Assembly (NCBI RefSeq): GCF_002085925.2 | Contig: NZ_CP053562.1 | Span: 1,406,001 to 1,470,000 of the forward strand | Source: Thioclava electrotropha | Lineage (GTDB): Bacteria; Pseudomonadota; Alphaproteobacteria; Rhodobacterales; Rhodobacteraceae | Direction of reading: 5' to 3' | DNA length: 64,000 nt | Part shown: positions 14,345-40,123 of the stretch, piece by piece | How positions within the stretch are numbered: the stretch's first letter is position 1 | Layout: each line of letters opens with the position of its first letter | The notes under the pieces: model-generated | What the model saw: the letters and a program-made list of their open reading frames with translations, nothing else | Told to the model about the DNA's origin: nothing | Databases searched by the model: none | Program-made: the position numbers and the translations under genes

Positions 14345-14421
14345 GGGCCTGTAGCTCAATTGGTTAGAGCAGGGCGCTCATAACGCCTTGGTTGCGGGTT
14401 CAAGTCCTGCCGGGCCTACCA
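14345..14421 (+). tRNA. tRNA with CAU anticodon (Met or Ile2)
   Basis: A 77-nt cloverleaf with encoded CCA. Acceptor arms GGGCCTG and CGGGCCT pair, with G-U pairs at positions 1-72 and 6-67; D arm GCTC/GAGC; anticodon stem GGGCG/CGCCT around loop CTCATAA, anticodon CAT; T arm GCGGG/CCTGC around TTCAAGT. CAT is shared by elongator Met, initiator Met and the lysidine-modified Ile2. The 1-72 pair is present, so initiator is unlikely. A choice between Met and Ile2 needs a covariance or TilS-determinant comparison. Confidence 0.94.
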
Positions 14422-21532: not shown

Positions 21533-21542
21533 GGCAGGGGGC
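21533..21542. other. Left attachment-site core (attL)
   Basis: GGCAGGGGGC, identical to 37461-37470. The island's left inverted end starts at its last base. Confidence 0.75.
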
Positions 21543-21719
21543 CTAACCCGACCGATAGTTGTCAGCGGAGTGCCTCTGCAGTGCTTAACTGGCTGATGGT
21601 ACCGGACTGCGCCGGTACGTTCCGATCGCTGCCCAGCCAATGAGGAGCCCGTGACAAAGAGAAAGGGCGCGGATTGCACCGCGCCCTTTTCCTGTTCGTT
21701 TTGCGTGATCTAAGGTCGA
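21543..21719. other. Left end of the island, non-coding
   Basis: Holds the left inverted repeat (to about 21563) and the terminator below. A GGTACC-centred palindrome-like stretch (GGTACCGGACTGCGCCGGTACG, 21598-21619) is also visible in part. No gene is supported. Confidence 0.6.
21662..21689 (-). terminator. Terminator of the leftward island operon
   Basis: Perfect 11-bp stem AAAGGGCGCGG / CCGCGCCCTTT with a 6-base loop, 30 bases past the end of the last leftward gene. T-rich sequence follows on both strands, so it may also stop transcripts from the other side. Confidence 0.75.
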
Positions 21720-22106
21720 TCAGTCTTCGTCGGCGTTGCCCGAATTCCCGGGCGCAACGCTTGCAACGCCTTCGTTTTCACGTGTGGCGCCAGTCTTTTC
21801 GATCCGCTGCGCGATCTCGTCGCGCACGACGTCCGGGCAGTCGGGGTGGTTTGCGATCCGCTTGGCATTCGCCTGCGTGGCGGTTTCGCTGAACAGGCGG
21901 AAGAACTCTTCCGCTTTGGGCGTACCCGCCAGCTGGGCCAAGACGCTCTCGAGGCTTGCGAAGAGCGCTTTATTCGCGCGGTCATGTTCGCGGTGCTGAT
22001 CAAGAGCGATCTGGGCAGTGAGGTTTTCCGCGCGGGCTTTCATTTGCCGTTGGCGGTCGGTCATACGGTTCCAGTCGATGACAGGATGCCGGTGTTTCTG
22101 TGCCAT
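21720..22106 (-). CDS. Hypothetical protein next to the relaxase gene
   Basis: 128 aa, charged and helical (MAQKHRHPVIDWNRMTDRQR at the start; RANKALFASLESVLAQLAGT in the middle), with an acidic disordered tail. No named domain is recognised. A ribosome-site-like AAAGGA lies 5-10 bases upstream of the ATG. It is the last gene of the leftward island transcript, directly behind the relaxase gene, where accessory mobilization proteins are often found; that role is inference only. Confidence 0.75.
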   Translation of the reverse strand: MAQKHRHPVIDWNRMTDRQRQMKARAENLTAQIALDQHREHDRANKALFASLESVLAQLAGTPKAEEFFRLFSETATQANAKRIANHPDCPDVVRDEIAQRIEKTGATRENEGVASVAPGNSGNADED

Positions 22107-22182
22107 GTAGTCGAGTCCTTTCGTGGCGGTCTTTGCAGCGCCTGCCCCGCGCCTATCGCGGGGCTTCTTGGCCGCTGTTTAG

Positions 22183-22215
22183 GAGGTGGGTTCATCGCGC
22201 TGAGCGCGGAAATCG
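22183..22215. repeat. 33-bp direct repeat, copy A (after the relaxase gene)
   Basis: Identical to 23545-23577 at 27 of 33 positions: the first 13 bases (GAGGTGGGTTCAT) and the last 12 (GCGCGGAAATCG) are the same. The two copies flank the relaxase gene and lie upstream of the two leftward genes. Confidence 0.7.
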
Positions 22216-22229
22216 AATTCGCGAACTTT

Positions 22230-23519
22230 TCACGTTTTCTCATCCGAGCCCCGACCGACGTCGTCGGACCGGGCGCGCGACAAGCGTCGCCGAAGCGCAT
22301 TCAGCGGCAACGAAAGCGATCTGCGCGCCTGAGCGAGACGTTGGCGCGCTTTGTCTGGAAGCGTGGTCGCGATCTCGAGAAGCGCTGCGTCCGCCGCCTC
22401 AATCTGGGTGAACTCATCATCGAGTTCGGCGCGTGCTTCTTTGCGTGCTCGTTGTCGGAGAACCTCGAGCGCGCGTCCGAAAAGGAGCCGCACAGGCGAT
22501 GTCGTATCGACTTGAGCGTCCTGTCGCACGGTCTCGTCCGTGTCGGAGCCAATATCCACGCGGCCTTCAGCCACCGCAGCCGCGACATCAAGCACGGACT
22601 GAGCCTCTTGCTGCCGCTGCGTGACGGTACGCTCTTGATCTGCGAGCGCCGATTTTTCGGCAGCGAGGGTTCCCTCGGCCTGCTTCACCACCTTGTCGCG
22701 AGTGGCCAGCTCAATCTCCTGGCTCTCGCGCCATTTCCGTGGGCTGACGTGATCGCGATGTTCTGGCAACGCGATCTCGGTTCCAGGATCGGCCGCCCCA
22801 TTCGCGCGCGCTTCGCGGACTTTCCTGTTGTGTTTAAGGGCCTCCCGCAGGGCTTGCTTGCGACGCTCGCCGCGCTGGAGCCCAATCTCCGCGAACCATT
22901 CGCCGACGCTATCTTGCGCCTTCTCGTAGCTCCGGATCAGCGGATGGACTGCTGGCTGCAGCATACGCCGGCCATCGGTTGTCACTGCGCGGGGAATGAT
23001 CACAGCGTGGATATGATATGCTGTTTCGTCGAGATCGGCGCGTGCATGAACGCAGTCGTCGCCGAAATTGGTCAAGAGCCACTCCTTGGCTCGCATCTCG
23101 AATTGCATCTCTCGCGTCGGGCCGCTCTCGCCGAGAAACTCGGTAAGATCTTTGTCGAACCACTCTTTGTTTACCGTCAGAATGATTTCGCGCAGCGGAC
23201 CGTGCCGGGTTGCGCGCCAGGGATCGCGCGGCCCACGGAAAAGCGCATTCTTAAGTTCCGTCTTCCGACGCCGGCGGCGCAGCTGCTCCAGTTCGAGGAG
23301 ATGGTTCGCGTGGCGCATGTCTTGAATCTCGTCCCACGCATCCTGCGCCCAGGTTTCCGAGCCGAGTAGCCGCCTGTTCGGGCTCTTGGGACTTTGTTCG
23401 CAATGGCCGTTATCACCCCCGCTGCGCATCCGGTGCTTCTCGTAACCGGCAAGATTGCGGGGGTGCATACCTTGCATGCGCATGACGATTGGGTAGTGGG
23501 TTTTCGTTGCTGATGACAT
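22230..23519 (-). CDS. MobV (Pre/Mob)-like plasmid mobilization relaxase
   Basis: 429 aa. The key motif is HARADLDETAYHIHAVIIPR (residues 158-177), with the paired His of motif III that holds the metal in MobV relaxases; the DLDETxxHxH pattern is characteristic. The N-terminal 110 residues are basic, including RRRRR at 81-85. Residues about 270-330 form a predicted coiled coil (ATRDKVVKQAEGTLAAEKSA and after) and the C-terminus is Arg-rich. Relaxases nick DNA at oriT to begin transfer. The MobV fold usually has a catalytic Tyr or His near the N-terminus, and I cannot place it with certainty. Start ATG at 23519 has GGAG 7 bases upstream. Confidence 0.83.
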   Translation of the reverse strand: MSSATKTHYPIVMRMQGMHPRNLAGYEKHRMRSGGDNGHCEQSPKSPNRRLLGSETWAQDAWDEIQDMRHANHLLELEQLRRRRRKTELKNALFRGPRDPWRATRHGPLREIILTVNKEWFDKDLTEFLGESGPTREMQFEMRAKEWLLTNFGDDCVHARADLDETAYHIHAVIIPRAVTTDGRRMLQPAVHPLIRSYEKAQDSVGEWFAEIGLQRGERRKQALREALKHNRKVREARANGAADPGTEIALPEHRDHVSPRKWRESQEIELATRDKVVKQAEGTLAAEKSALADQERTVTQRQQEAQSVLDVAAAVAEGRVDIGSDTDETVRQDAQVDTTSPVRLLFGRALEVLRQRARKEARAELDDEFTQIEAADAALLEIATTLPDKARQRLAQARRSLSLPLNALRRRLSRARSDDVGRGSDEKT

Positions 23520-23521
23520 GG

Positions 23522-23546
23522 TCGATCTCCGTGTTTGTGAGATCGA
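23522..23546 (-). promoter_or_regulatory. Hairpin over the ribosome binding site of the relaxase gene
   Basis: An 8-bp perfect inverted repeat, TCGATCTC and GAGATCGA, with a 9-base spacer. On the leftward transcript its 3' arm contains the GGAG ribosome site 7 bases before the relaxase ATG, so the fold would hide the site. It could instead be part of an oriT. Confidence 0.5.
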
Positions 23547-23577
23547 GGTGGGTTCATGTCATTTGGCGCGGAAATCG
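23545..23577. repeat. 33-bp direct repeat, copy B (before the relaxase gene)
   Basis: Partner of 22183-22215 (27 of 33 identical), placed 26 bases upstream of the relaxase start. Confidence 0.7.
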
Positions 23578-23828
23578 CTGTGAATTTCCCCCGGTATCTA
23601 CCCGGGAGGTGCCTGCGAGGCGGGTGTCGGGGATGGCGAAGCGATCGGGGGAGACTCGGTCACAAAGGGCGGAGCGCAGTCGTTCTCTGCGGTGTGAAAA
23701 GCAGTCTGTTGAAAGGCCCAAAGCAGGCTAAATCAATTGAGACTGTCGCATGCCTTCAACTTTGTTCCTCCCCGACTGCACCCTTCATTTGTCGTCAGTG
23801 CAACTTATTGCGTGCTATCCGTGGCACC
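23578..23828. other. Non-coding stretch between relaxase and NTPase genes
   Basis: No convincing gene. It contains a short GC hairpin (CCCGGTATCTACCCGGG, 23590-23606) and is a plausible place for oriT, which in MobV elements usually lies just upstream of the relaxase gene. No known nick-site motif was recognised. Confidence 0.5.
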
Positions 23829-26800
23829 TCAGGTTTCCGACCGCGGGCCACGGCGAGTGAGGTCGACTACGATGACCGTGACCTCTTCAATGTCCGGCCA
23901 GTCACCAGCGACCAAATTCCAATAGTTCTGCAAGGCGGTCTCGAGACCATTCAGGTCAACTCGGCAACCGCCGATCTCCCACTTGCGATCTGCCGCTCGC
24001 CCTTGCCAAGTCAGAAGCATGATACCTCGGCCACCGGCCTCCGCGCGGAGATAGTCTCCGGCGAGTTGGTTTCGAAGCCGCTCGCACAGTTCAGGTCCCG
24101 TCCAGCCCTTGTCCAGTAGCTTCAGTTCAATCGGAACGGGCGTGACGCCCGGCGCTTGCATCCAAATGTCGGGCCGTTGGGAGTTTGGCATCTCATTTTC
24201 TTGGGCACACGTGTATTTCCCATTCGCCAAGTCATTAAGGCGACCGGTGATGAGGTTTCGCACCTCCGTTTCCGCCTCCGCGCGCTGCCATGTCCGGTAC
24301 GGGCTGTCGTCGCCATCCTCCAACCAAGCGCGGATATCGATTAGCCGGTTAACGGTCAGGGAGAAGAGCCGGGCGTTAGTATCCGGCACCAACGTTTGGT
24401 CTACATTGAACTGACGTACTTGATCATCAGTCCAGTCGTCGACGTCCCCGTCTTTCTCGGCCCGTTGATATGCCAATTGTTGCATCCAGTCGCGCGAGGC
24501 CTCATTAGGATGATCCTCAGCCAGTTGCCGCAACGCTAGGTAGGTTGTCTTCCCCGGGATATCGCAGAGGACGTTGAAAAGGCTGTTGCGAGCATCTTGG
24601 GCGTCATCGCGTAGCCCAGGAGAGTAGACGCCGCGGCCGGCCCGCTCGATATCCTCTGCCACCCTAATGTGCTGGTGCATGAGGGTATAAAGTCGCTTGA
24701 GGTGTTCCGGCTTGCGATAGCTGTCGAATCCGGTGCTGAGGTGCTGGCCGCGACGATCGCCAAGGAGTTCGATGATGAAATGCTGAGCCGCCGTCGATGC
24801 CTCGTCGGCGGGCATTGCGCCGAGCCAGGCTTCCAACCGCGGGATCGCCGGTGCTGCTTCAGTATCAACCCAGAGCGCGTACCATTTAGCTTTCTCGGAT
24901 GCCGGCAAATGAAATTCAACTTTGCTGCGTGCGAGGTCCGAAAGACGACCGCCATCGGCCGTGCTCTTGGCGATGTAGATTGCTTGGCGAAGTACAACCG
25001 TGTCGCGCACCGTATTCGCCTCAAGCCAGTCAATGACCCAATCCGCGATATGCGCGTGCAGCCACGGCGCGTGGTATACAATTTCATGAAGCATGTAGGA
25101 TCGTGGCGCCTCGTCGCGTCTAAGGTCCCAACCAAGTTCTTGGAGCATCATTCCGGTGACGGTTTCAGGGCGATCACGAAACGCTTTCTCCGACCAAGTC
25201 GGAAATCCGTTCAGTTCCCATGGCACATAACGAACGGCGAGCAGCAATTCCTCATCGCTCAGATGCCTAGGAAAATCGGTGATTGTCTCGGCTTCGATTT
25301 CTAGACCGGCAAGCCCGAATATCAATGTGTTCGGAACGCTGCTCGTATCAAGCCCTTCGGAAGCCACCTTTGGTGAATAGTGACGCCAATGTCTCATTGC
25401 GGCGTCGCGGTATTCTGAGGCAACTTCTTCACCGAACGTGCCGATGAGACTGCGCCAGTCGTCACCACGCCAGCGGGAACTGTCGCCGTTCTGGGTCGCT
25501 TCCATCAGATGGTACTGATTGTTCGTCATTTCTCCCGGCTCGACGCTTTCTGGACGACGAACAAGGGACGGGTCGGCCTTTAGATCCTCGATCCACCGGC
25601 GACGCCTCTCTTTCGCCACCGCGTCCTTTCTCTGACGTTTGCGTCGAGCCTTTTCGAGCCGCTCATCCATGGCCTGCTGCCTTCTAGAGGGTTTCCAGCT
25701 GATCATACCTTCAAGGTGTTCTGCTAGCACGGGCGCAGTTTTGACCCTGTCTCGAAGCTTGGCCAAACCTTCGTCAGGCTGCTTGGTTTCTCTGACCAGA
25801 CGATAGGCCAAAGTGACCGCAACAAGCTTATCGTCTTGGTTTCCGCGCTCGGAGATCCATGTCAATACGCGTTCGAAATCGTCGCCTTCGTAGCGACAAC
25901 AATCATCAAACAGTGCCTTGAACGGATCAGTCACACGAGCACCATCGGTCGCTTCCCGGTCCCCCCGCTCTTCGGCGATCGCTGACCAGAAGATGGTGTC
26001 GTTCAATTCAGGCCATTCCGGCACGGCCTTCTGAAGCCTCGTCGCGTGTTCGCTGAGATCGATATCGTGCCAGAAGCGGGCAGCAGAGAGCTTGTGCAGT
26101 ATGGCGACCGAATTGCCTTCAAGAGCATGCATCGACCGCACGCCAACAAGCCGCTCGACAGCGTGCACTGCTGCGCTGAGAAGCCAACAGTGGTTCTGGG
26201 ATATCCGTTCACGGCCGCCTTGGAGATGAGGTGCCCGACCCAGCATGCTATTCAGGCCTTCAACCAGTCTCGCAAGCTCCCGCTGGCCTTCGGCATTCTC
26301 GATCTCGAAGCCGTCAATGAACCGATGCAGTGCATCGGACAATCCGGTGACCTGGAAACGTTCGTACGGCGTCAACCGTTCTATCGTAGCAAGTAGCCGT
26401 TCAACGGACGCACGATTAGACGTTGCGTTACTAAAAATCTCCGCCGCCAGACGGCGGTCTATCAATCCAGAGTTGGCGACGATTCGATCCCAAACAGTAT
26501 CAAAGTCCCCACTGGTTCCAGCCGTTGCGACAGCTCTAAGCGCAGCAATCCTGGCGTACGGGCCACGCATGAGGTCGGTGGCAATCTCCGCCAAAGGGCC
26601 TATGCAATCTGTCATCTCGCCCTGCCAGACCAATCTGCCCAAGTAGAACAAGGCGGAGTCGTTCTCTCGATGCCGTTGGATGAGCTCCAGGACGTCATTG
26701 GAGAGGTCGGGCAGGGCTATTCGCGCGATGGCGTCATTGTTGTTCGCAGACCGAGAACCGGCATCCGTGGCGATCCTTGCGACGATTTCGTGGAGCAGGC

Positions 26801-28151
26801 GCTTCCTTTCGTCCACGGGAAGACGCGACACGTCTCCCCCTTCCACGACGATTTCCGGGCTGAGCGAAACTGCCTTCTGACGGATGTTGTCATCGAGCAA
26901 GATCAACCACGGCAGCAGCGGTCTCAGGCTCGGCGCGATGAACTTGTGGCCGTACTTCTCGCGAAAGATCAAAGTCTCGACCGCGCGACGAGAGCTGCCC
27001 GTTTTCAGATGTTCTGCCAGCCATTCGGCCGCGAGAAATTCGCGCACCTCACGGTGTCGGAAACGCACCTTTCCGTAGATGGCATCATCGAAGATCCCAC
27101 GCTCGAGCAGGGCGTGAACATCGTTTGGATGCCAGTCGCCGAGAACAACGACCGCGTCCACTCCATCCTTCCGCGGGTGCTCGTCCGGGACGTTGATTCC
27201 AGATTTCCCAGATAGGACTACGGCCGCTGCCAGACTTCTCGCGCCTGCTCGAGCCATTTCTCGATTGAGCGGCTGTTGCCTGTCTCGGGTGGGATTGCTT
27301 TCCGAAAGCCTTTTACTGATCCCAAAGTTCAGAAAATCGAAACGACTCCCGAGTTTGCCGTCCTCCTTCCACTTTTCGATTATACCTTCGAGATCGAAAG
27401 GCCGCGCGGCAACCGCGGTTAGATTACGTCGCTGTATGTCGTCGACCAATCGGTCAGCATTATCAACGCCACGCGCCTCAGCAAAGACGCGCATTTCTGG
27501 TCCCGTGAGGTCGTTCAAAACGAAGACACTCAAGCCATCATCGGCAGTCGACGTCTCTTCCACCTTATGGCGACCCTCGTTGGCAGGCTCGTCAGCTTCG
27601 CCAGTTTGCGCGACCCCGCTCCTCGGCGTCGCATAGGGCAGATGCTTCTTCACCATCAGGTAATCGGTGTGGCTACGCCAGGCGTACGGACGGCTCGAGA
27701 TCACGACGTGCGCGCGGTGTTGAGCAGACTTTATGCGGCGGGCGAAGCGGCGTATCGCTTTCTCGAAAGCCCTTGGGTCATCGAGGCGCGCCTCATCGAT
27801 GGAGTCGAGGTAGAACCACGCCTCATCCGACGACGTCAGCCAGGCGTCAAATTCATCGGCGTCTCCGACCTCGAACGCCAGTTCGAAGTCTTCGATGATG
27901 TCTTCGATGCGAATGAAAAATGCGGCACCGCCCACTTGACGCTTCGCTTTCGCTCGTATCCACATCTCGTGCGTTTTGCCGATACCCGCCCCGGCAAGGA
28001 TGACCGCACGACGGGTGCTTTCCACGGTGTCCCAGTCGATCGGCTTACGTCCACCGACGAAAGCCATGATTTCGTGGTTCTTCGCATCTTTTTCTGTCGC
28101 GTGAAGCGGCGAGAACGTGCGGTCGAGCGGGACGTGATCACCACGGGTCAA
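23829..28151 (-). CDS. Large STAND/NACHT-type NTPase with C-terminal PD-(D/E)XK nuclease motif
   Basis: 1440 aa. Near the N-terminus lies a P-loop NTPase: Walker A GAGIGKT (residues 54-60), a NACHT-style Walker B FYLDSIDEA (113-121) and a sensor motif VVISSRPYAW (149-158). The middle (about 330-1290) is helical and repeat-like (HEAT/TPR-type by appearance), as in ligand-sensing STAND proteins. The C-terminus has RPDIWM with Asp1328, then PIELKLL with Glu1342 and Lys1344, and a following helix RNQLAGDYL, a good PD-(D/E)XK nuclease pattern. NACHT/Avs-like proteins with nuclease ends act in anti-phage defence; that role here is inference. The start is TTG at 28151, supported by GGAG 7 bases upstream. 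Confidence 0.85.
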   Translation of the reverse strand: MTRGDHVPLDRTFSPLHATEKDAKNHEIMAFVGGRKPIDWDTVESTRRAVILAGAGIGKTHEMWIRAKAKRQVGGAAFFIRIEDIIEDFELAFEVGDADEFDAWLTSSDEAWFYLDSIDEARLDDPRAFEKAIRRFARRIKSAQHRAHVVISSRPYAWRSHTDYLMVKKHLPYATPRSGVAQTGEADEPANEGRHKVEETSTADDGLSVFVLNDLTGPEMRVFAEARGVDNADRLVDDIQRRNLTAVAARPFDLEGIIEKWKEDGKLGSRFDFLNFGISKRLSESNPTRDRQQPLNREMARAGARSLAAAVVLSGKSGINVPDEHPRKDGVDAVVVLGDWHPNDVHALLERGIFDDAIYGKVRFRHREVREFLAAEWLAEHLKTGSSRRAVETLIFREKYGHKFIAPSLRPLLPWLILLDDNIRQKAVSLSPEIVVEGGDVSRLPVDERKRLLHEIVARIATDAGSRSANNNDAIARIALPDLSNDVLELIQRHRENDSALFYLGRLVWQGEMTDCIGPLAEIATDLMRGPYARIAALRAVATAGTSGDFDTVWDRIVANSGLIDRRLAAEIFSNATSNRASVERLLATIERLTPYERFQVTGLSDALHRFIDGFEIENAEGQRELARLVEGLNSMLGRAPHLQGGRERISQNHCWLLSAAVHAVERLVGVRSMHALEGNSVAILHKLSAARFWHDIDLSEHATRLQKAVPEWPELNDTIFWSAIAEERGDREATDGARVTDPFKALFDDCCRYEGDDFERVLTWISERGNQDDKLVAVTLAYRLVRETKQPDEGLAKLRDRVKTAPVLAEHLEGMISWKPSRRQQAMDERLEKARRKRQRKDAVAKERRRRWIEDLKADPSLVRRPESVEPGEMTNNQYHLMEATQNGDSSRWRGDDWRSLIGTFGEEVASEYRDAAMRHWRHYSPKVASEGLDTSSVPNTLIFGLAGLEIEAETITDFPRHLSDEELLLAVRYVPWELNGFPTWSEKAFRDRPETVTGMMLQELGWDLRRDEAPRSYMLHEIVYHAPWLHAHIADWVIDWLEANTVRDTVVLRQAIYIAKSTADGGRLSDLARSKVEFHLPASEKAKWYALWVDTEAAPAIPRLEAWLGAMPADEASTAAQHFIIELLGDRRGQHLSTGFDSYRKPEHLKRLYTLMHQHIRVAEDIERAGRGVYSPGLRDDAQDARNSLFNVLCDIPGKTTYLALRQLAEDHPNEASRDWMQQLAYQRAEKDGDVDDWTDDQVRQFNVDQTLVPDTNARLFSLTVNRLIDIRAWLEDGDDSPYRTWQRAEAETEVRNLITGRLNDLANGKYTCAQENEMPNSQRPDIWMQAPGVTPVPIELKLLDKGWTGPELCERLRNQLAGDYLRAEAGGRGIMLLTWQGRAADRKWEIGGCRVDLNGLETALQNYWNLVAGDWPDIEEVTVIVVDLTRRGPRSET

Positions 28152-28374
28152 AGGCTAACTCCAAGCACGTAATTATCGGGTCGGATAGGAGATATTCACC
28201 GTCGCCAGCTTCTCGTTCAAGCCCTAAGCGCAGTGAGCGTGGGAGAGTTTTGGGCCGAGAGAGACACGCATTTTCGCTTACTGCGAACGGGGATGCCACG
28301 CTGAGTATGAACGACCGCTTCGAGCGACTGCGGTGCAAGAGCCCGAAATGGAACTGATCGTCAGTGTCGTGTCG
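28152..28374. other. Leader of the NTPase gene
   Basis: 223 bases without a convincing gene between two leftward genes; large enough for a separate promoter for the NTPase. No clear operator was seen. Confidence 0.4.
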
Positions 28375-28752
28375 TCACTCGCACAGGGCAATTGTGATGC
28401 TTATGACACCCAAGAGAACAGACATCAGTGCGAGCCAAGCAGGGACGTGAACGGCTGGATCGGGCGTTTTTAGAAGCCAGCCAATTTTTCCAGGCCATCT
28501 AACCTTGGTGATGGAAAAATTGAGACTTCCACCTTTGTCTACACCGAGAGCTTCTCTGATGTCATATGGCATGAAGATGGCAGACCCGTCGTCATGCCCA
28601 AGGACGAGAACTTTAACAGATTTGGCGTTCTCGGCGTTTGACAGATTAGCAATGCCATAGCGCGGGATACCGGCCCGGTACGCTTTGTTGAGACGAACCA
28701 GCAAGCGGCCAGAATCGTTGGCGGGGAGAGCCTTTACTGGCAGCTTTGTCAT
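28375..28752 (-). CDS. AbrB-like small protein with a C-terminal membrane helix
   Basis: 124 aa from the ATG at 28752, chosen because AAGG lies 8 bases upstream. Residues about 10-80 read like a SpoVT/AbrB-type beta barrel: RLLVRLNKAYRAGIPRYGI, then VKVLVLGHDDGSAIFMPYDI and REALGVDKGGSLNFSI, with the LGV-x-KGG turn. The last 22 residues (AWLALMSVLLGVISITIALC) form one membrane helix, so the domain would face the cytoplasm. AbrB folds are usually DNA-binding, but a membrane-anchored version is unusual. It is transcribed toward the large NTPase. Domain assignment is by eye and not certain. Confidence 0.7.
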   Translation of the reverse strand: MTKLPVKALPANDSGRLLVRLNKAYRAGIPRYGIANLSNAENAKSVKVLVLGHDDGSAIFMPYDIREALGVDKGGSLNFSITKVRWPGKIGWLLKTPDPAVHVPAWLALMSVLLGVISITIALCE

Positions 28753-28862
28753 CGCCTGAACCTTAAATTGCTCGGTCGCTACCGAATAGCATATAATGTC
28801 CGCTTCAAGTAAGCTGCATTGCAACGGTGGCTTGCAGCATGAATGGCAGCTTTAGGCCGTTC

Positions 28863-29078
28863 CTAGAAATCAGTCGTGAACACTTTTATGCGCCCCGCCG
28901 CGTCGAAGAGCTTTTTGTCGTATTTCTCAGAAGCTTTCTGCTGCACCGCAGGCAACCCGTAATCGTCAATCGCCTCTTGTGAGCTGACCACAACGACGCG
29001 TGTGTTGCCATCAAATGCCTCTATAAGTGTTTCGAAATCCGCGGAGTTTCCCTGCTTTCCGGAAAATGTAAGTGACAC
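28863..29078 (-). CDS. DUF1488-like small protein
   Basis: 71 aa. The start is GTG at 29078, because a GGAGG site sits 8 bases upstream; a TTG further up would place the GGAGG inside the gene. The protein, beginning MSLTFSGKQGNSADF and ending GRIKVFTTDF, with VVVVSSQEAIDDYGL and ASEKYDKK between, resembles DUF1488 proteins, which have a (V)SxEAlxD segment, a KY segment and a terminal DF. Function unknown. It is the first gene of the leftward island transcript. Assignment to DUF1488 is a suggestion only. Confidence 0.55.
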   Translation of the reverse strand: MSLTFSGKQGNSADFETLIEAFDGNTRVVVVSSQEAIDDYGLPAVQQKASEKYDKKLFDAAGRIKVFTTDF

Positions 29079-29482
29079 TAGACCCGCCTCCAAAATATTT
29101 CCCAGTCAGCCTCGCGGGAAACCACACCTGGGATTTCTCTGAATTGTGAGCTGATAATTCCAATTTCAGTATGCATGGGATGTTTGCGAACTTGCAACGC
29201 ACAAATTCTGCGCGCCGCTCGAATGGAAGCAATGCGGAAGCTGCACTGCAATGTCAGGTCAGCTGCTGTGCGGCAGCTCAGAGCCGATTGAGGGGGTCTG
29301 ATGCAGACGACATTCACCATCAGTCTTTCCTCCCCAACGACTGAACCGCCCCCCCCCGGAATGCAGCTGCCCCAAGCACACCCTCGTTCCACAGGCCTTT
29401 GCCTAACCGGCGCGCAGGGCCCTCTACTCACTAGACGGCCCGCGCAATCGTCCTCCGGCCAATAGCGCGTCCCGAGCGTTCG
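29079..29482. other. Non-coding stretch upstream of two divergent island operons
   Basis: Between the leftward DUF1488-like gene and the hairpin array. It should hold the leftward promoter. It is AT-richer near 29090-29200. A run of ten C at 29350-29359 is visible. No gene is supported. Confidence 0.5.
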
Positions 29483-29737
29483 CTGGGGCGCAGCCCCAGA
29501 CCCGGCGCCGCTGCGCGCCGCATGGGGGAAGCTCCACATCCCCCAAACCCCCAGGGCAGGGATCGTTCGCCACTTTCCCTGCACCCAAAGGCGCCCATCC
29601 GGCGGACCGGGGGAGACCTTCGCCATTCTCCCCGGACCCTCTCGGCGTCCTTCCGACGGATCGAAGAGGCGCTCGCCACCCTCTCTGAACTCTCCCGGCG
29701 CCTCCGGCGGGTCGAGAGGGATGTCACCCCTCTCGAC
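29483..29737. repeat. Hairpin array with tandem imperfect repeats of about 53 bp
   Basis: Successive inverted repeats: CTGGGGC/GCCCCAG (29483-29499), TGGGGGA/TCCCCCA (29523-29545), CAGGGA/TCCCTG (about 29552-29575), CCGGGG-AGA/TTCTCCCCGG (29607-29635), an imperfect copy near 29660-29690, and GTCGAGAGGG/CCCTCTCGAC (29711-29737). The last three units start with the same kind of motif, GCGCCCATCCGGCGGACCG, GCGTCCTTCCGACGGATCG and GCGCCTCCGGCGGGTCG, at 29591, 29645 and 29698, spaced 54 and 53 bases. This is neither coding nor a CRISPR array. Confidence 0.65.
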
Positions 29738-29933
29738 GCTCTCCCCTGCATCCGCGCGATCTGCCCGCAGGCGAGCGATCAATGGGTCGTGGGAGGGGAG
29801 AAGGCCTCGGCGCATGTCTTGCTTGCGTGCAGCGTCTTTGACGCACGCAATCAAGCCAAGCCCCGAGGCCGCGTATCGGGGTTTGTGGTGAGGTTCCGCG
29901 CGTCGTTTTTCTTTTCAACGACACGAGGCACTC

Positions 29934-30422
29934 ATGCTCCACGACCGATACCTTCGGCTGCTTCCCGGCGGCCAACTCAAGCCCGGCGATATCTTCCTGA
30001 TGCGCTTCCCCTATGGCTCCGACCGCAAACGTGATGGCGAGTTCGACATCCCGCCCGGCACGCGTCCTTGCTTGCTCCTCTCGCGCGGGCTGATCGGCGA
30101 TGCACCGATGAACATCGTCGCGCCCGGTGTCAGCCCGGAGGGCCGGTTGCTGCGGGAAGATGACATCGTCATCGCCGATGACGACCAGGCGGCCGCCTGT
30201 GGGCTTTATCGTCCCACCATGTTCCGCGCATCGCATCGGCTCTTCATCGCGACCGGGTCCGACCTGTTCGAGCGCAATGCTCGTATCGGGCGCCTGGGTC
30301 CGGCGCAGCGCGAACAATTCGAGGCGGTCGAGACGCTGCTCACAGCCGCACCGCGTGAAGTCCGATCACGGCTGAGGGCGCGCGTCGCAATCTACCGCCC
30401 GAAACCTCTCATCCAACCTTAA
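29934..30422 (+). CDS. PemK/MazF-like protein
   Basis: 162 aa. The segment LKPGDIFLMRFPYGSDRKRD followed by GTRPCLLLSRG and NIVAPGVSP (residues about 15-65) matches the opening strands of the PemK/MazF toxin fold, which reads GDI-x-h-h-x-F...RP-h-h-h-h-S. MazF proteins are mRNA-cleaving toxins. The remaining 95 residues (HRLFIATGSDLFERNARIGR and a helical end) are longer than usual, and no antitoxin-like gene precedes it, so it may not be a toxin. It is the first gene of the rightward island transcript, downstream of the hairpin array. Confidence 0.65.
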   Translation: MLHDRYLRLLPGGQLKPGDIFLMRFPYGSDRKRDGEFDIPPGTRPCLLLSRGLIGDAPMNIVAPGVSPEGRLLREDDIVIADDDQAAACGLYRPTMFRASHRLFIATGSDLFERNARIGRLGPAQREQFEAVETLLTAAPREVRSRLRARVAIYRPKPLIQP

Positions 30423-30437
30423 GGCGCGCCGCCGATC

Positions 30438-30491
30438 GGGGCTGTAGCGTCCGTCCGCCTTCTCACCGAGGCGGACGGATCTTGCAGCCCC
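30438..30491 (+). terminator. Two-tier hairpin between island genes
   Basis: Inner stem TCCGTCCGCC (30450-30459) with GGCGGACGGA (30470-30479) and outer stem GGGGCTG (30438-30444) with CAGCCCC (30485-30491), right after the PemK-like gene. A terminator or mRNA processing site; there is no long T tract. Confidence 0.5.
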
Positions 30492-30532
30492 GCTTCGTCT
30501 CCTGACCCCCAATTTTCTTCGAAAGATCACAT

Positions 30533-30973
30533 ATGACTCATGATAAACACCCGTCTGAACTCACCCCCGAAGAGCTTCGCAAAGAGCGTAGTGTGCTCGC
30601 AAACGTCGTTCACGGAGCGACTGCGACGCCGCCCCCGAAAGATCTCGAGAATGCGCCGCTTCTCGACGATTGGTTGCTCTTCACCGGTTTCGAAGACATC
30701 TCGCTGATCGGACGATTGACGGAAGCAAACGGCCGCACCCGAACGCTGATCACGCGAGCTCTCATCGCGCTCGATGACGCGCTCGAATGGGCCTACCTCG
30801 AAGACGGATACATGCGGCTCGGACCGCGTTTCTCCGTCGAAGAGGCCCCGCCGCATCTTGCGATGCGCGCCGTCGCGACAGATCTGAGAGAGATCCACAC
30901 GCAGCTCGAGGGGCAAGCATATTGGGCGCAGAAGGCGCTCGATGCGCTCGGCGAGATGCGCTGCGATGCGTGA
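30533..30973 (+). CDS. Hypothetical island protein
   Basis: 146 aa, mainly helical and acidic. It opens MTHDKHPSELTPEELRKERS and has DDWLLFTGFEDISLIGRLTE and TRALIALDDALEWAYLEDGY in the middle. No domain is recognised. Codon use is like the neighbouring GC-rich genes. It lies between two hairpins, after the PemK-like gene and before another small gene, all on the plus strand. Position in the island suggests an accessory plasmid-type gene; no function can be proposed. Confidence 0.72.
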   Translation: MTHDKHPSELTPEELRKERSVLANVVHGATATPPPKDLENAPLLDDWLLFTGFEDISLIGRLTEANGRTRTLITRALIALDDALEWAYLEDGYMRLGPRFSVEEAPPHLAMRAVATDLREIHTQLEGQAYWAQKALDALGEMRCDA

Positions 30974-31022
30974 TCGCGAATTTGCGAGAAATGATCCTGA
31001 CGGGATCGGCTGAACCGCAACC

Positions 31023-31050
31023 GCTGCGGCCCCTCGATGAGGGCCGCAGC
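31023..31050 (+). terminator. Perfect hairpin between two small island genes
   Basis: Stem GCTGCGGCCC (31023-31032) with GGGCCGCAGC (31041-31050), 8-base loop, 50 bases after one gene and 31 before the next. No T tract. Confidence 0.5.
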
Positions 31051-31080
31051 GCCCGCAGTTCAGTTTGAAAAGGATGTCCG

Positions 31081-31416
31081 ATGTTTCAGAAACCGAGCCT
31101 GATCGACACTGTGAACACCATGGCGCGCGAGGCAATCGACGCTCTCGATGCGCTGCCAGCTGACGCTCTCCGGGGAGCAGAGCGCGACCGGGATTATTGC
31201 GAGCGACTCGTGATCAAGGGCGACGTCTTAGTTGAGGATTTTCGGGAGGTGGGTGCGAAGATTCTGCGCCACCTTGCGCGGATTGAACCCGAAGAACGAT
31301 TTGCACGCGAACTCGACAGCGCGATGCGTCGACTGCGCGACGCAATCAATGGCTCGTATCGCGTTTCTCTGGGTCTCGGCGCCGAGCGCGCGACCAGCTT
31401 CCAGCGAGCCGCATGA
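31081..31416 (+). CDS. Hypothetical island protein
   Basis: 111 aa, helical (MFQKPSLIDTVNTMAREAID at the start; FAREL and RRLRDAINGSYRVSLGLGAE near the end). No domain recognised. An AAAAGGATGTCCG ribosome site precedes the ATG. It is the last small gene before the large YobI-like NTPase gene and is transcribed the same way, but a gap of about 375 bases separates them. Confidence 0.7.
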   Translation: MFQKPSLIDTVNTMAREAIDALDALPADALRGAERDRDYCERLVIKGDVLVEDFREVGAKILRHLARIEPEERFARELDSAMRRLRDAINGSYRVSLGLGAERATSFQRAA

Positions 31417-31791
31417 TGAAGATATGACGCCGAACGGCGTAGAAGAGATGGCGGTGGTAACCCGCCTGGGCGCGCCAACAAATCCTTTCCGCATATGCTC
31501 CACACTCAACCGAAACCGGCGCGTCCACACTCCCTCCAATCCAAGCGTCGCTGCGTTCAAGGCTGTTGGTTTGCGCGATGCTTGGCGCGTAACTACTCTT
31601 AGAACAAGACGCGATCGGTCCTTTGCGAACCTTGGACTGCGCCATTGAAAACGTCGGCTTTGGTCCTTGCTAGAGCTGACAACCCAAATTGCCGCCGGTG
31701 AAGAGAATGCAGACGCTCGCCATAAACTGCGTAAGAGCTCACCCGTTTGCGCTATATTTTCTTCGTGCACGGAATGTGTTACTCCATATCG
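31417..31791. other. Non-coding stretch before the YobI-like gene
   Basis: About 375 bases with no convincing gene. Base composition falls from GC-rich to AT-rich from about 31600 on, marking the edge of the AT-rich NTPase segment. It probably holds that gene's promoter. Confidence 0.5.
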
Positions 31792-34700
31792 ATGAGAACA
31801 TTCTTTATCGCTTTTGTTCATTGGTTTGCAGAGAGACTAAGCGTTTCAGCTGCTTTTTTGGAACGGGTAGGCCGGTCCGCAGAAACGCAGTCAAAATTCG
31901 TGAATCTTGCGCCAACAGATGAGGCCGATGAAGCAGGTGTCTACGCCGAAGCCATTGGATTCGCCATTAATGACACTAAGGTCAAGAACATCGCACTTAC
32001 CGGGCCCTATGGCTCCGGGAAGAGCAGTATTATCCAATCCTACTTGAGCAAGCACCGACCTAAGGCTTTGCACATATCTCTGGCCACGTTCACTACAGAT
32101 GAAGGTGCGGTTAGCAAAGATGTCACCCGTCAAGAAATAGAGAGAAGCATTCTTCAGCAGATGCTATACGGCGCTGACGCGAATAGGCTACCTTTATCAC
32201 GTTTCAAGAGGATTCAGTCCCCTGGTTTTTGGTCAATTTTCACCTCCCTATACATGGTGCTTGGCGTAGCATCAATTTTTTACGTATTTCATTATCGAGA
32301 CGACGTCCTTAGTGGCGCATTCTTCGATCCATTCGCTTTTGGTAACTGGGTTAACTTAAGTATTTTCACGATCGCTTCTGTCTTTCTGTGGACAGCTTTT
32401 CATCACTTCTACGTGGCTAGCTTTGGCGTATCACTCAAAAGCCTATCCCTGAAAGATATCGAGATACGTCCTGCTGCTGAAGATCAAGAATCTATTTTAA
32501 ACCGTCACTTGGATGAGATCATCTATTTCTTCCAATCAACTTCCTATAATCTGGTGATTATAGAAGACTTGGATCGTTTCAACGACTCAGAGATATTCAC
32601 TACGCTGCGTGAGATAAACAGTTTGGTGAACGAAAATGCAGGTGTGAAACGCACCATAAGGTTTCTCTATGCCTTGCGCGATGACATGTTCGCAAACACG
32701 GATCGAACAAAGTTCTTTGAGTTTATCATACCAGTTATTCCGATCATCAATTCTTCAAATTCCATTGACATGGTCTTGAAACAAGGCAAAAGGCTAGCGC
32801 TCGACAACCGTCTTAATCGTCAGTTCATCAGAGAGGTGTCAAGATATCTTAACGATCTTCGGTTAATACAAAACATATTCAATGAGTATGCGATATATGT
32901 TGCAAACCTCGAAGCAGACGAGGATAGTTTGCTTGACGCAAACAAACTATTAGCGGTCATAATATATAAAAATGTACACCCGAAAGACTTTGAGCAATTA
33001 CACCGCGGGGAAGGTAAATTCGCTCAGATATTACGTCACCAAGAAGACCTGGTTCGGTCTGGAGAAGCGACTTACAAAGCAGAGATCGCCCAACTCGAAA
33101 AAGAGATCAACGCTGCAGATCGTCAGACCCCGTTAGATCTAAAAGAATTGCGTCAAATATACGCTATGGCCTTTATCGAGAAGCTTCCAGCTAGCATCAT
33201 CAGCATTCGGGTGGAAGGGCAAACGCCAGTCCTACTTTCGCAGCTTCCTGAGCATAGTGCCTTAGAGCAATTGATCGACGCAACACGCATCAGCGGTCGC
33301 AATCAACACAACCAAAATATTCAATTCGATATTTCTAGCGTTCCAGACAGCGTTGCTCCCGGAAAGTCCTATCAGCAGCGCAAAAGAGAGATCGAGAGAA
33401 AAGCAGCTGATTACAAGAACAATAGCTTACACAGGATCAACGAGCTTAGGTCGAAGATCGCATCTCTTCGTACAACTAAGCTAAATGAACTTTTGCGGTT
33501 GAACGCTAGTGATATTGGTCACCTCTTCGACGGCTTTAAGGAAAACGGAGATCTTGCTCGGTTTTTGATCTTGGAGGGGCATTTAGACGATACTTACTAT
33601 CAATATACGTCTCTGTTCCACTCCGGTCGCCTTTCACCAAACGACAACAAATTCCTGATCCAGATACGCGCGTTTGTCACTCCTGAGCCGGATTTTCCTG
33701 TCGACAACCCAAGAGAAGTCATCGCGGCAATGCGTGACGAAGATTTTGGACAAACGTATATCCTTAACGTGAATCTCGTTGACTGCCTGTTGAGTGACCC
33801 GAGTCGCTACCCAGAACAAGTTCAGAGGTTTATTGGATTAGTCTCTTCGGATTTCGATGGCTGTGAAGGCTTCTTCGATGCCTACTATACCAGCGGTAGC
33901 CATGTCACAGCGCTGCTAGCCAGGCTCGCGGCAACTTGGAAGGGTTTCGTCTCAGCTGTTATCGCCAGTCCCAATAATCTCAGTCATGTTGCGGAGCTTG
34001 TTGTGAGGCTACCTGTCAGTTCACTTGAGAGACTCGCTAGCGATTTTGAAAGTCTACCTCACTTTGTAGCTGAAAACCTGCAGGCGATTCTCTCACGAAG
34101 TCCTGAGCTGGAAGCTGACCACCTTCAGGCCCTCAACTTTGAAGTCAAAGATCTTGCAGCAATTGAAGAACATTCGGATGCTTTACAAACAATGTGGAAA
34201 GCAGGTCTGTTCGAGCTTACCATTGAAAACTTCGATTATGCATACAGCTCGCTCTTAGGAGAAACGGATCTGCGGCCGTTGCACGAGAAAAACTTCACAA
34301 CGATTCGTTCTTTGAAAAACCCGATCCTACTGAATAGGGTCGAGCGAGACTTCGATAGCTACATGCGCCAAATCGTGTTAGAGCTCCCAGAAAACTCAAT
34401 GGAGGACGAACCAGCTATTCTTGATGTGGTTCGCCGGGAGACGATCTCCCAAGATGTTCTGAGTGAATTTCTTGAGCGGCAATTCACTCAACTTCCCTCC
34501 TTAGACGGCGTGCCAGAAAGCCTGTACGCCATATTTTTCCATCTAAATTCAATCGAGCCATCTTGGGTGAATTGTCTTTCGTTCCTCGAGAGCAAGGGGT
34601 TTGAAGCGGAGCGGCTGATCGAATATCTCGACCGTGACGACGTGCAATCAGCTATCTTGAAACACCCTATACCGGATGACTCGGAAGCAAAAAAGCTGCG

Positions 34701-35403
34701 TCTCTTTCTCGTTCGCGCGGGCTCTCTGTCTGATGCTGCATACACCGAGTACGTTCGGGCGTTGCCGCGACAGTTTGAGTTTGTTCCGGAGGAAATCGAT
34801 CAATCCAAAATTCGGATATTGATAGAAGAAAAAAAGCTCGTATTCACTACTGCAGTTTTTGACGCGCTTGCTGAGAAAGGCGATCTGCAGGTGCAGTTCG
34901 TCGCTAACAACATAAAGGCATATCTCGCGGATTCAGCCGAATTTTCACTTGATGATGATTTCCGGGAGCAGCTTCTGAAAACTGGCATTGATCAAGCTTC
35001 CAAGGGTGAAATTGTCAAGATGATGGACCTGACTGCGCTCGCAAGCCGACCTGACCGATCAGCTCTCATTGGACCTATCATCGCTGGTGCAGACGTCAGT
35101 TTGTTCGACCTTAATGCAGATATTGTTCAGGCCTTGATAGACGGTTCAAAATCCACAACAACGCAAATCTCTTTACTGAACAAATGCTATACTCTGTTAA
35201 CGAACGAAGAGTTGCGCGTTGTGTTGGCCAAGCTACCGAAACCATATTCCGAAATTAAGACTGGTTACGGTATTCCGCGATTGAAAAACACCCGCGAGAA
35301 TCTCGAATTGGTCAGGTGGCTTGACGCGCGAGGCATCATTTCCTCTTGGAGCGAAGGCGGTCTCTTCTCAAACGACATAAGAGTGAACCTTTACCGCAGC
35401 TAG
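31792..35403 (+). CDS. YobI-like / KAP-type P-loop NTPase, membrane-anchored
   Basis: 1204 aa from the ATG at 31792; a longer frame starts at TTG 31747 and an ATG at 31774, and no ribosome site decides. KFVNLAPTDEADEAGVYAEA followed by NIALTGPYGSGKSS (Walker A at about 71-78) is the YobI-type opening. Two membrane helices are inserted (about 146-167 and 186-209), and Walker B VIIEDLDR is at 255-262, as in KAP NTPases. A coiled-coil stretch lies near 430-560, and the rest is helical. Related NTPases occur in defence islands and next to toxins; the role is not established. The DNA is visibly AT-rich compared with the flanks, a sign of recent acquisition. Confidence 0.85.
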   Translation: MRTFFIAFVHWFAERLSVSAAFLERVGRSAETQSKFVNLAPTDEADEAGVYAEAIGFAINDTKVKNIALTGPYGSGKSSIIQSYLSKHRPKALHISLATFTTDEGAVSKDVTRQEIERSILQQMLYGADANRLPLSRFKRIQSPGFWSIFTSLYMVLGVASIFYVFHYRDDVLSGAFFDPFAFGNWVNLSIFTIASVFLWTAFHHFYVASFGVSLKSLSLKDIEIRPAAEDQESILNRHLDEIIYFFQSTSYNLVIIEDLDRFNDSEIFTTLREINSLVNENAGVKRTIRFLYALRDDMFANTDRTKFFEFIIPVIPIINSSNSIDMVLKQGKRLALDNRLNRQFIREVSRYLNDLRLIQNIFNEYAIYVANLEADEDSLLDANKLLAVIIYKNVHPKDFEQLHRGEGKFAQILRHQEDLVRSGEATYKAEIAQLEKEINAADRQTPLDLKELRQIYAMAFIEKLPASIISIRVEGQTPVLLSQLPEHSALEQLIDATRISGRNQHNQNIQFDISSVPDSVAPGKSYQQRKREIERKAADYKNNSLHRINELRSKIASLRTTKLNELLRLNASDIGHLFDGFKENGDLARFLILEGHLDDTYYQYTSLFHSGRLSPNDNKFLIQIRAFVTPEPDFPVDNPREVIAAMRDEDFGQTYILNVNLVDCLLSDPSRYPEQVQRFIGLVSSDFDGCEGFFDAYYTSGSHVTALLARLAATWKGFVSAVIASPNNLSHVAELVVRLPVSSLERLASDFESLPHFVAENLQAILSRSPELEADHLQALNFEVKDLAAIEEHSDALQTMWKAGLFELTIENFDYAYSSLLGETDLRPLHEKNFTTIRSLKNPILLNRVERDFDSYMRQIVLELPENSMEDEPAILDVVRRETISQDVLSEFLERQFTQLPSLDGVPESLYAIFFHLNSIEPSWVNCLSFLESKGFEAERLIEYLDRDDVQSAILKHPIPDDSEAKKLRLFLVRAGSLSDAAYTEYVRALPRQFEFVPEEIDQSKIRILIEEKKLVFTTAVFDALAEKGDLQVQFVANNIKAYLADSAEFSLDDDFREQLLKTGIDQASKGEIVKMMDLTALASRPDRSALIGPIIAGADVSLFDLNADIVQALIDGSKSTTTQISLLNKCYTLLTNEELRVVLAKLPKPYSEIKTGYGIPRLKNTRENLELVRWLDARGIISSWSEGGLFSNDIRVNLYRS

Positions 35404-35699
35404 TTCGCGTCCAGTGAGCTTGGCAAACTGCGAGAGTAAGCTAGGCCGATGAATATTGGCTCAATAGGCTCTCAAGGTACAAAGCGGTCAATCTAGCTCA
35501 ACGCAAAGAAGAGCTGCTTCCCGCACTGTATTGAGCAGGTCTCAATCCTGAGATGAACGCTCCGGCGAGCTCACATTGAACTTGAGTTTCTTGTTGTCCG
35601 TCTTGAGGCGAAAATTTCAGTTTTTTAGTGGTCGCGTTTCCGCGCTCTGACCGATGAACCCAGCTTCCTTAGTAGGACACCGATACTAAGGAGCTTACC
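35404..35699. other. Non-coding stretch upstream of the recombinase operon
   Basis: 296 bases. Nothing coding is supported. It should carry the promoter of the small ORF and recombinase; an inverted TTAGTAGGACACCGATACTAAGG-like motif (TTAGTA and TACTAA at 35669-35689) lies just upstream and could be an operator. Confidence 0.4.
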
Positions 35700-35870
35700 A
35701 TGCCATCCGCCCCCATTACCGCCGCCAACGATACGCTCGATGAAGCGACGACAGTGCCACTAGCCTGCAACGCGATTGCGCGGCTGCTGGCGCGCGCTGT
35801 TGTTCGGGATCTCGCGAATACGATCCCCGCCAACAGCCCCGCCGCGCCTCAGAAGGAGACAGCACAATGA
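35700..35870 (+). CDS. 56-aa ORF coupled to the serine recombinase gene
   Basis: A short frame starting ATG at 35700 with a strong AAGGAG site 7 bases upstream, reading MPSAPITAANDTLDEATTVP to the stop TGA at 35868-35870. It ends with an ATGA overlap with the recombinase start, so the two are translationally coupled. The protein is helical (ACNAIARLLARAVVRDLANT in the middle). No family is recognised. Small proteins upstream of serine integrases can act as directionality factors, but nothing in the sequence shows that. Confidence 0.65.
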   Translation: MPSAPITAANDTLDEATTVPLACNAIARLLARAVVRDLANTIPANSPAAPQKETAQ

Positions 35871-37537
35871 CGAAACGTGTCGCAATCTATGCCCGCTACA
35901 GCTCGGGTCTCCAGAAGCAGACTTCGATCGACGATCAGGTCGCGATGGCGGAGCGGTTTGCCAAGGAGCGCGGATGGGTGGTGACCCATCGTTTCACGGA
36001 TTACGAGAAATCCGGACGCAACACGCGCCGCGAAGGTCTCCAGGCGCTGTGCGCTGCGGTCAACGCGCGGCAGGTCGATGCGATCGTCATCGAAGCCGTC
36101 GACCGCCTCACCCGCAAGATCGCGGACGCGCTCAATCATTACGAGCTGTTCCAGTTCCAGCAGGCCGAGCTTTACTCTGTCGCCGAAGGTCAGCAGGACT
36201 TTTTCAAAGTTCTGATCAACGCGCTCGGCGCGCAGCTTTATGCGCAGATGATCGGTGAACACACGCGCCGTGGCATGGTGCAGGGGCTCACCCGGAAACG
36301 GCTTCACACGAGCGCTTACGGCTACCGCAAGCGTGACGGCGACGACGGGCTCAACCGCGAGATCGACCCCGAGGAGGCCGAAGTTGTGCGCCGCATCTTT
36401 CGCGAGTTCGCGGACGGGCATTCGACCCAGGCGATCATCAAGCGGCTGAACAAAGACGGCATTCCTGCGCCGCGCGGCGGCACATGGGATATCAGCACCG
36501 TCCGAGGCAACCCGGCACGGTTCGAAGGCATGCTGCGCAATCGTCTGTACATCGGCATCGCAAGCGTCGCGAAAACCTCACGCCGCTACCATCCGGAAAC
36601 CGGGAGCAAGGAGGTCTTCGAAACCCCGAGTGCGGCCACGGAGATCGAGATCCCGGCGCTGCGGATCATCGATCAAGACCTGTGGGAGCGAGTGGAGGGG
36701 CAGCTTGCGATCCAAGCCGCGAAGACCCGAAGCAAAGGCAACCCCGTAGGGGCCCGGCGCAGCAAGCATCTTCTGAGCGGTCTGCTGGTCTGCGGCTGCT
36801 GCGGCGCGACTTATGTGAAAGTTGGCCGAACCCATTTCGGATGCCGTGAGGCGCGCAAAGGCGCGTGCGATAACAAGACAACTATTCACCGCGACCGGAT
36901 TGAGGCGCGTGTCTTCGCGAAGCTCCGTGGTACCTTTCTGACATCGGAGCTGGCCGCAAGCTTCGACGCCGCGCTCAAGGCGGAGTACAAAACGCTGGCA
37001 AACGATCAGGGCACAGACACCGTATCGCGGCTCGAGCGACGTCTTAAGAAAGCGCGCACGAGCCGCCAGCGCATCTTCGATGCGATCGAGCAAGGCGCAC
37101 CCTACAGCGCTTACAAATCGCGCGCGGAGGACCTTGAACGCGAGATCGCCGATCTCGAAGCCGAGTTGTCTCAGCATCAGGAGACCCGCGCGGTCCTGCC
37201 GCAACTTCCGACCGACAGTGCTACGCTCTTTGCCCGCGCGGTGCAGGAACTCGAGACACTGCTCGCCGACCCCGAACTTGTTCACCAGGCCAACGAACAT
37301 TTGCGAGAACTCATAAGGCGGGTCGAGTTGAGACCCGCCCCTGATGCACCCGATGCGCTTGCCGCCGAGATCGTTTCTGATCTCGGCGCTTTGCTTTCCG
37401 CCGGGGGTGTTACGCCGAGTATCGTCGATATTTTCAGTGCCAAGCGGCAACTATCGGTTAGGCAGGGGGCGCTGCCCCCTCGGCCTGACGGCCTCACCCC
37501 CGGGATATTTGCGCCAAGGCGAAGGGAGAAGGGTTAA
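35867..37537 (+). CDS. Large serine recombinase (site-specific integrase)
   Basis: 556 aa. Resolvase domain: RVAIYARYSSGLQKQTSIDDQ in part, with the catalytic Ser12 in YARYS, and the VIEAVDRLTRKIAD active-site Arg region. A recombinase domain follows (KRLHTSAYGYRKRDGDDGLN at about 145-165), then a zinc ribbon LVCGCCGATYVKV...GCREARKGACDN near 305-345, and a coiled coil (about 385-450). It can carry out integration and excision of the island. The right end of the island lies at its residue 535, so the last 21 residues are encoded by chromosome. Joining the two island ends would end the protein at Ala535 with TAA. Confidence 0.93.
   Translation: MTKRVAIYARYSSGLQKQTSIDDQVAMAERFAKERGWVVTHRFTDYEKSGRNTRREGLQALCAAVNARQVDAIVIEAVDRLTRKIADALNHYELFQFQQAELYSVAEGQQDFFKVLINALGAQLYAQMIGEHTRRGMVQGLTRKRLHTSAYGYRKRDGDDGLNREIDPEEAEVVRRIFREFADGHSTQAIIKRLNKDGIPAPRGGTWDISTVRGNPARFEGMLRNRLYIGIASVAKTSRRYHPETGSKEVFETPSAATEIEIPALRIIDQDLWERVEGQLAIQAAKTRSKGNPVGARRSKHLLSGLLVCGCCGATYVKVGRTHFGCREARKGACDNKTTIHRDRIEARVFAKLRGTFLTSELAASFDAALKAEYKTLANDQGTDTVSRLERRLKKARTSRQRIFDAIEQGAPYSAYKSRAEDLEREIADLEAELSQHQETRAVLPQLPTDSATLFARAVQELETLLADPELVHQANEHLRELIRRVELRPAPDAPDALAAEIVSDLGALLSAGGVTPSIVDIFSAKRQLSVRQGALPPRPDGLTPGIFAPRRREKG
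37461..37470. other. Right attachment-site core (attR)
   Basis: GGCAGGGGGC, identical to 21533-21542. It lies inside the recombinase reading frame and borders the chromosomal repeat. Confidence 0.75.
37463..37531 (-). repeat. Dispersed CCCGGGATATTT-type intergenic repeat, copy 1
   Basis: The order is a GGGGGC/GCCCCC hairpin, then a second hairpin, CACCCCCGGGATATTT, then GCCAAGGCGAAGG. The same order, reversed, is at 49641-49706. This shows that sequence right of the island end is chromosomal. Confidence 0.75.
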
Positions 37538-40067: not shown

Positions 40068-40123
40068 CTTCGCTCTTGCGAAAATATCCCGGGGGCCCGC
40101 AGGACGGGGGCAGAGCCCCCACC
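40068..40123 (+). repeat. Dispersed CCCGGGATATTT-type intergenic repeat, copy 2
   Basis: CTTCGCTCTTGCGAAAATATCCCGGGGG followed by a GGGGGC/GCCCCC hairpin, between the 5' end of uvrD and the 3' end of folE2. Described in part: ATATCCCGGGGG is the shared core. Confidence 0.65.

Follow-up and report, generated by a model that had tools for sequence, protein, structure and literature searches.

A putative integrative and mobilizable element of Thioclava with a dispersed hairpin target and variable cargo slots that often match antiphage genes

A 64,000-nt stretch of the Thioclava electrotropha genome (hereafter the window) contains a segment flanked by two copies of GGCAGGGGGC, which raises the questions of whether it is a mobile element, where exactly it begins and ends, and how it came to its place. 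The most probable reading (roughly 87%) makes the segment an integrative and mobilizable element (IME), which would be inserted by a serine recombinase into a hairpin target, could be mobilized, and has slots often occupied by antiphage genes.

The two copies of GGCAGGGGGC that an earlier note had read at 21533-21542 and 37461-37470 are both exact, with no third match within the window, and at least two matches occurred in 1 of 100 dinucleotide shuffles of the window. Across the genome the motif was found 53 times, versus 6 for the reversed pattern. This abundance lends weight to the reading that the direct repeats are a coincidence, in which a frequent motif occurs twice and the DNA between accumulated there or arrived by homologous recombination between the abundant hairpins; the earlier note had itself held that a frequent repeat would count against its ends. 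We searched 61 genomes, including that of the strain itself, with the right flank of the window element, and 52 matched. Among the 30 loci listed, the DUF3422 flank was also present, besides the own genome, at L010 (genome G013) and L011 (G006). In these two genomes of the same genus DUF3422 and uvrD are adjacent, as the earlier note had sought in a relative, and both flanks meet at one GGCAGGGGGC in the hairpin that alone separates the two genes. The joined-flank sequence of 707 bp aligned end to end with 96.7% (L010) and 95.6% (L011) identity. Frequent as the repeat is, these empty sites put the junction exactly there, and they support its proposed role as an attachment site.

Empty sites were also found for other copies of the element. 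For the second copy in the own genome (G000b), the empty sites in G006, G013, and G007 include the hairpin, and in the more distant G003, G015, and G001 its flanks aligned around an empty site from which the hairpin was absent. For copy G003a, an empty site in G001 aligned over 404 of 707 bases, across the junction; an FMN riboswitch (100 bits, L127:3136-3292) lies near this site. G015a, G007a, and G007b yielded no orthologous empty site that has the flanks of both sides. The left flank and hairpin of G007a matched L010 and L011, but its right flank did not. At G007:C1:1311946-1342420, the DUF3422-side hairpin used in the window is also occupied, by a copy with other cargo whose right flank is not uvrD, and uvrD lies ~12 kb beyond it; the differing right flank could stem from a deletion between hairpins in the lineage of the window. 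Because of the empty sites at three insertions (window, G000b, and G003a), we rejected coincidental repeats as extremely improbable. Two further features argue against them: the inverted arms directly inside the core are identical at six separate places, and one end has a site-specific recombinase.

Since related strains keep the empty site, the ends of the element can be read exactly, as had been claimed earlier, although the core common to the family is 7 bp long and not 10. From core to core the element spans 21536..37470 on the forward strand, mapped against the empty sites and five other copies, and the unit is 15,928 bp when one core copy is counted. The core AGGGGGC lies at 21536..21542 on the left and 37464..37470 on the right (both forward strand), and it was common to both ends in 6/6 mapped copies of what we call family A. 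We cut the core from ten to seven bases because the ends of G003a, G015a, G000b, and G007b share AGGGGGC only. The GGC preceding the window core is host sequence at the left and element sequence at the right, and it stands outside the general core because the host bases before the core of those four copies differ from the right-end GGC or GAC; G007a, which sits in the same DUF3422 hairpin as the window element, shares ten bases between its ends. Just inside the core lie the left arm CTAACCCGACCGATAGTTG (21543..21561, forward strand) and the right arm CAACTATCGGTTAGGC (37448..37463, forward strand), and these near-matching inverted ends read as first described. Of the hairpin that the earlier note had seen on the right, the right end abuts the second half, GCTGCCCCC, and the left end has the first half only. 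A tRNA target was rejected, as the search of the window found a single tRNA, at 14345-14421. Rfam gave two matches at the island, both under their gathering scores, one of them to BjrC68 just inside the left end (21655-21732, 25.9 bits, gathering score 39).

The recombinase of the element was used as a query against the genus, and 13 of 16 genomes gave some match, though often a distant one or one to the repeat only. Full-length copies with 91–94% identity, together with the window's own, occupied seven places in 5/16 genomes, and shorter pieces were also present in G015 and G003; the loci with near-identical recombinases belong to Thioclava. Both ends were mapped for six of these seven family A copies, with units of 15,928 bp (window), 15,891 bp (G003a), 6,150 bp (G015a), 16,389 bp (G000b), 17,631 bp (G007a), and 12,138 bp (G007b), while the seventh, G013a, runs to a contig end. 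The mapped copies are built of three conserved blocks with two variable cargo slots between them, and G015a has lost its middle block together with most of the relaxase. The own genome and G007 each hold two family A copies, and G013 and G015 each hold one A copy and one or two copies of a subfamily B; dispersed hairpin targets would allow such related cassettes to coexist in one genome. The backbone blocks of G000b and the window element are only 89% alike, so no recent slot exchange between the two own copies is seen. G000b also contains two inverted 1.27 kb copies at 99.9% identity.

Matches to the left-end pattern numbered 18, in 8 of the 16 genus genomes, compared with 6 for the reversed pattern across all 16; 15 of the 18 were read (L154 looks doubtful) and 14 were scored for a stop codon. 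The pattern was present in 2 of 394 sampled genomes of the bacterial family, namely the own genome and G003. Left ends were not found for the Marivivens donghaensis copy described below within 10 kb upstream, nor for G013a, G015b, and G015c in stretches that reach contig ends. Plasmid carriage of the close recombinase was rejected, as 250/250 matching records were below 60% identity.

The host hairpin repeat that forms the target, AGGGGGCGCTGCCCCC...CCCCCGGGATATTT, lies at 37464..37510 on the forward strand. In the own genome AGGGGGCNCTGCCCCC occurs exactly 53 times, twice at the right end of an element, and 145 times within 2 mismatches versus 19 for the reversed pattern; a single hairpin may contribute a match from each strand to these counts. 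In each of the seven full-length family A recombinases (≥91% identity) the right end reads AGGGGGC, then [G/T]CTGCCCCC, then CCCCGGGATATTT. The subfamily B right ends, which belong to three full recombinases (46–48% identity) and one fragment, were at the hairpin in 4/4 cases with the right arm CAAATAACGGTCAAACT, and the M. donghaensis copy (68% identity) also ends at the hairpin, with GCCGCCCCC and CCCCGAGGTATTT. The hairpin was thus the target in 12/12 right ends read (7 close, 4 subfamily B, 1 Marivivens). Recombinases of ~52–56% identity (L044, L045, and L046; partial L047 and L057) had no hairpin at their frame ends in the stretch read, and several at or below ~40% identity run into tRNA-like sequence at the right end, such as L093, L096, L094, and L095 (32–40%), whose right-end frames enter it with the ending VAGVGFEPTTFRL or similar. 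A further hairpin near-match, TGGGGGCTCTGCCCCC, is in the right flank of the window element (40106-40121, reverse strand).

The copies of GGCAGGGGGC are strongly polar. On contig C1 of the own genome (G000), the forward strand has 23 of the 24 copies up to 2.09 Mb and the reverse strand has 26 of the 27 from 2.21 Mb onward. G007 and G010 show a similar strand switch, near 1.93-2.02 and 2.19-2.31 Mb, and G003 is likewise among the genomes with polar copies. The pattern resembles that of the FtsK-orienting KOPS motifs. The lone forward copy among the later reverse copies in G007 is the right end of element G007b.

The crossover point was approached by joining the right end to the left end as attP and scoring every centre of symmetry without gaps. 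The best centre, which separates the fourth G of AGGGGGC from the fifth, was the same in 7/7 attP sequences (six family A and one B), with 14–19 of 25 pairs matched, so the 5-base insertion previously assumed in the left inverted end is unneeded. The attB of the window peaks at the same GG pair (12 of 18), and the two others of the three attBs tested peak at the hairpin loop instead. The crossover pair is therefore likely to be the GG at 21540-21541 and 37468-37469, as judged from the symmetry of the joined ends. The two ends of the subfamily B element have just GGGGGC in common.

The recombinase gene (35867..37537, forward strand) encodes a large serine recombinase, with the Resolvase catalytic domain followed by the Recombinase and zinc-ribbon (Zn_ribbon_recom) domains, all above their Pfam cut-offs; Pfam did not find DUF4368 in it. 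Its frame crosses the junction. No stop occurred before attR in 6/6 family A copies, and in the window the frame continues into host DNA for 21 codons after the shared GA, giving 556 aa in the integrated state. In the predicted circle form, the left end would stop the frame directly after the core at 535 aa in 6/6 copies, in the window at the TAA of the left arm, with a C-terminus of ...RQGA or IRQGA followed by TAA or TAG. The integrated family A frames are 540, 540, 556, 557, 560, and 640 aa long, with host tails of 5 to 105 residues, and one mapped subfamily B element likewise reads ...GA and then a stop. An in-frame TAA or TAG was present one base past the core in 11 of the 14 left ends scored and absent in L144, L147, and L150. 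L144 and L150 are in G010, a genome without a close recombinase. At L150 (G010:C1:3546582-3546606) the left end GGGGGCGCTGCCCGACCGTTATTTG is ~7 kb upstream of a recombinase with 54% identity, and it may mark a third subfamily with a different cutting position in the hairpin. As some distant relatives also read into tRNA-like sequence, the overlap by itself may be widespread among these recombinases. We offer as a speculation, which we think doubtful, that integration rewrites the recombinase and so acts as a state sensor, with only the circle form competent or stable, and that the hairpin sites and exchangeable slots form a self-locking defence cassette system. If so, a state-sensing tail would help lock the element in place, and a state-dependent tail would make the control of serine integrases directly testable.

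The recombinase also bears on the reading that the island is immobile, with recombinase or ends dead in this strain. In its favour, related remnants exist: the recombinase is broken in G003 (L059/L068), and G010 has a left end without a close recombinase. In the window, however, the recombinase has an open frame and matches the catalytic-domain models, neither arm is damaged, and family members occupy different places in close relatives. We regard an immobile island as unlikely.

The earlier note had seen a serine recombinase, a relaxase, and two large NTPases between the ends. Toward the left end, the element encodes a 128 aa backbone protein of no family (21720..22106, reverse strand; 87–93% identity in 5/5 other family A copies) and a divergent relaxase of 429 aa (22230..23519, reverse strand), which is just over the Pfam Mob_Pre cut-off (26.2 bits versus 25.5). 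We call it MobV-like only, because it missed the NCBIfam MobV cut-off (46.8 bits versus 100). A nested inverted repeat at 23513..23562 (no strand assigned), which overlaps the relaxase start and was read in five family A copies, is a candidate oriT. The element has two marks of an IME, its own relaxase and precise integration with an empty site in relatives.

Slot 1 holds HyoA, a NACHT-domain antiphage protein of 1440 aa (23829..28151, reverse strand), which NCBIfam NF058534 matches over its full length (residues 9-1434; 1609.6 bits, cut-off 1200), and a frame of 149 aa with no family (28375..28824, reverse strand) that was not found in other copies. The name HyoA did not occur among the papers listed in literature searches. 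In slot 1 of G000b, an OloB match spans two frames of 173 and 389 aa (L074/L075), so that this gene looks broken. The middle block encodes proteins of 162 aa (29934..30422), 146 aa (30533..30973), and 111 aa (31081..31416; no family), all on the forward strand and each present in 7/8 other elements compared, the first with 77–98% identity and no stops. A PemK-like match of the 162 aa protein and a DUF6634 match of the 146 aa protein were both under the cut-off; the structure model of the former was poor (mean pLDDT 40), and that of the latter (pLDDT 75) had no PDB match at E up to 0.001. Slot 2 holds a YobI-ATPase/Tmn-like NTPase of 1218 aa (31747..35403, forward strand; Pfam YobI-ATPase, 405 bits), for which the best stretch of the PADLOC Tmn match (286 bits) covers the N-terminal half only (residues 48-660 of 1218 versus 23-684 of 1273). 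Defence models matched in 5/7 mapped elements, suggesting that the slots may often act in defence.

Phage integrases share this recombinase class and phage satellites often carry defence genes, so a phage satellite or a prophage remnant with a phage-type serine integrase could present a similar face. Against this stand the relaxase gene within the backbone, the lack of capsid, portal, or large terminase matches among the frames scanned, and the right-end pattern, whose 0 matches in viral contigs led us to reject viral carriage. A phage origin is very unlikely.

For an integrative and mobilizable element, we propose that the recombinase would join attP (right arm, AGGGGGC core, left arm) to an attB that is one dispersed intergenic hairpin copy, probably at the GG pair of the attP symmetry. 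The orientation would be fixed, with the recombinase end meeting the second hairpin half. Excision would reverse the joining, perhaps with a putative directionality factor among the small backbone genes, and the predicted circle junction has a single AGGGGGC between CAACTATCGGTTAGGC and CTAACCCG. The MobV-like relaxase may then nick the nearby candidate oriT, and a helper conjugative element would transfer the circle. Cargo probably turns over as backbones exchange the contents of their slots, by which the three backbone blocks would stay alike while the two slots swap cargo, often antiphage genes. For this alphaproteobacterial family of mobile elements that carry defence genes, the ends are now exact, the target follows a rule, and the architecture is one of exchangeable parts. 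If the recombinase targets an intergenic repeat with dozens of copies, this would explain how several related defence cassettes fit into one genome and leave its genes undamaged, and the landing site of such an enzyme is both repeated and readable.

IS110/IS1111, which are small elements with RNA-guided DEDD transposases, likewise insert into palindromes dispersed between genes; the Thioclava element differs from them in enzyme class and in size. Literature on serine recombinases, repetitive extragenic palindromic sequences, and integration had only IS110-type subjects by title, and among titles and abstract openings, mostly outside subscription journals, no serine-recombinase element targeting a dispersed hairpin repeat was found. 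Like the multi-targeting large serine recombinases, in the available text of their description (PMC10083194), one recombinase group here inserts at many genome places, and that text foresees recombinases evolved for multiply occurring sequences. Its best-described examples use relaxed, short, or AT-rich motifs and many have DUF4368, whereas the Thioclava recombinase targets a GC-rich hairpin repeat between genes and gave no Pfam match to DUF4368. According to the available parts of a 2017 review (PMC5704250), no described IME of Proteobacteria canonically has its own relaxase without other transfer genes, and the Thioclava element is alphaproteobacterial with its own relaxase. The closest organization described there is that of the clostridial mobilizable transposons Tn4451/Tn4453, which likewise have one serine recombinase, a MobV-type relaxase, no transfer apparatus of their own, and a very short sequence common to both ends. 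Tn4451, however, has low target specificity and a 2-bp identical core (PMC5704250, same parts), which sets its family apart from the Thioclava element, with 6–7 bp common to its ends and a specific dispersed hairpin at all 12 right ends read from close, subfamily B, and Marivivens copies.
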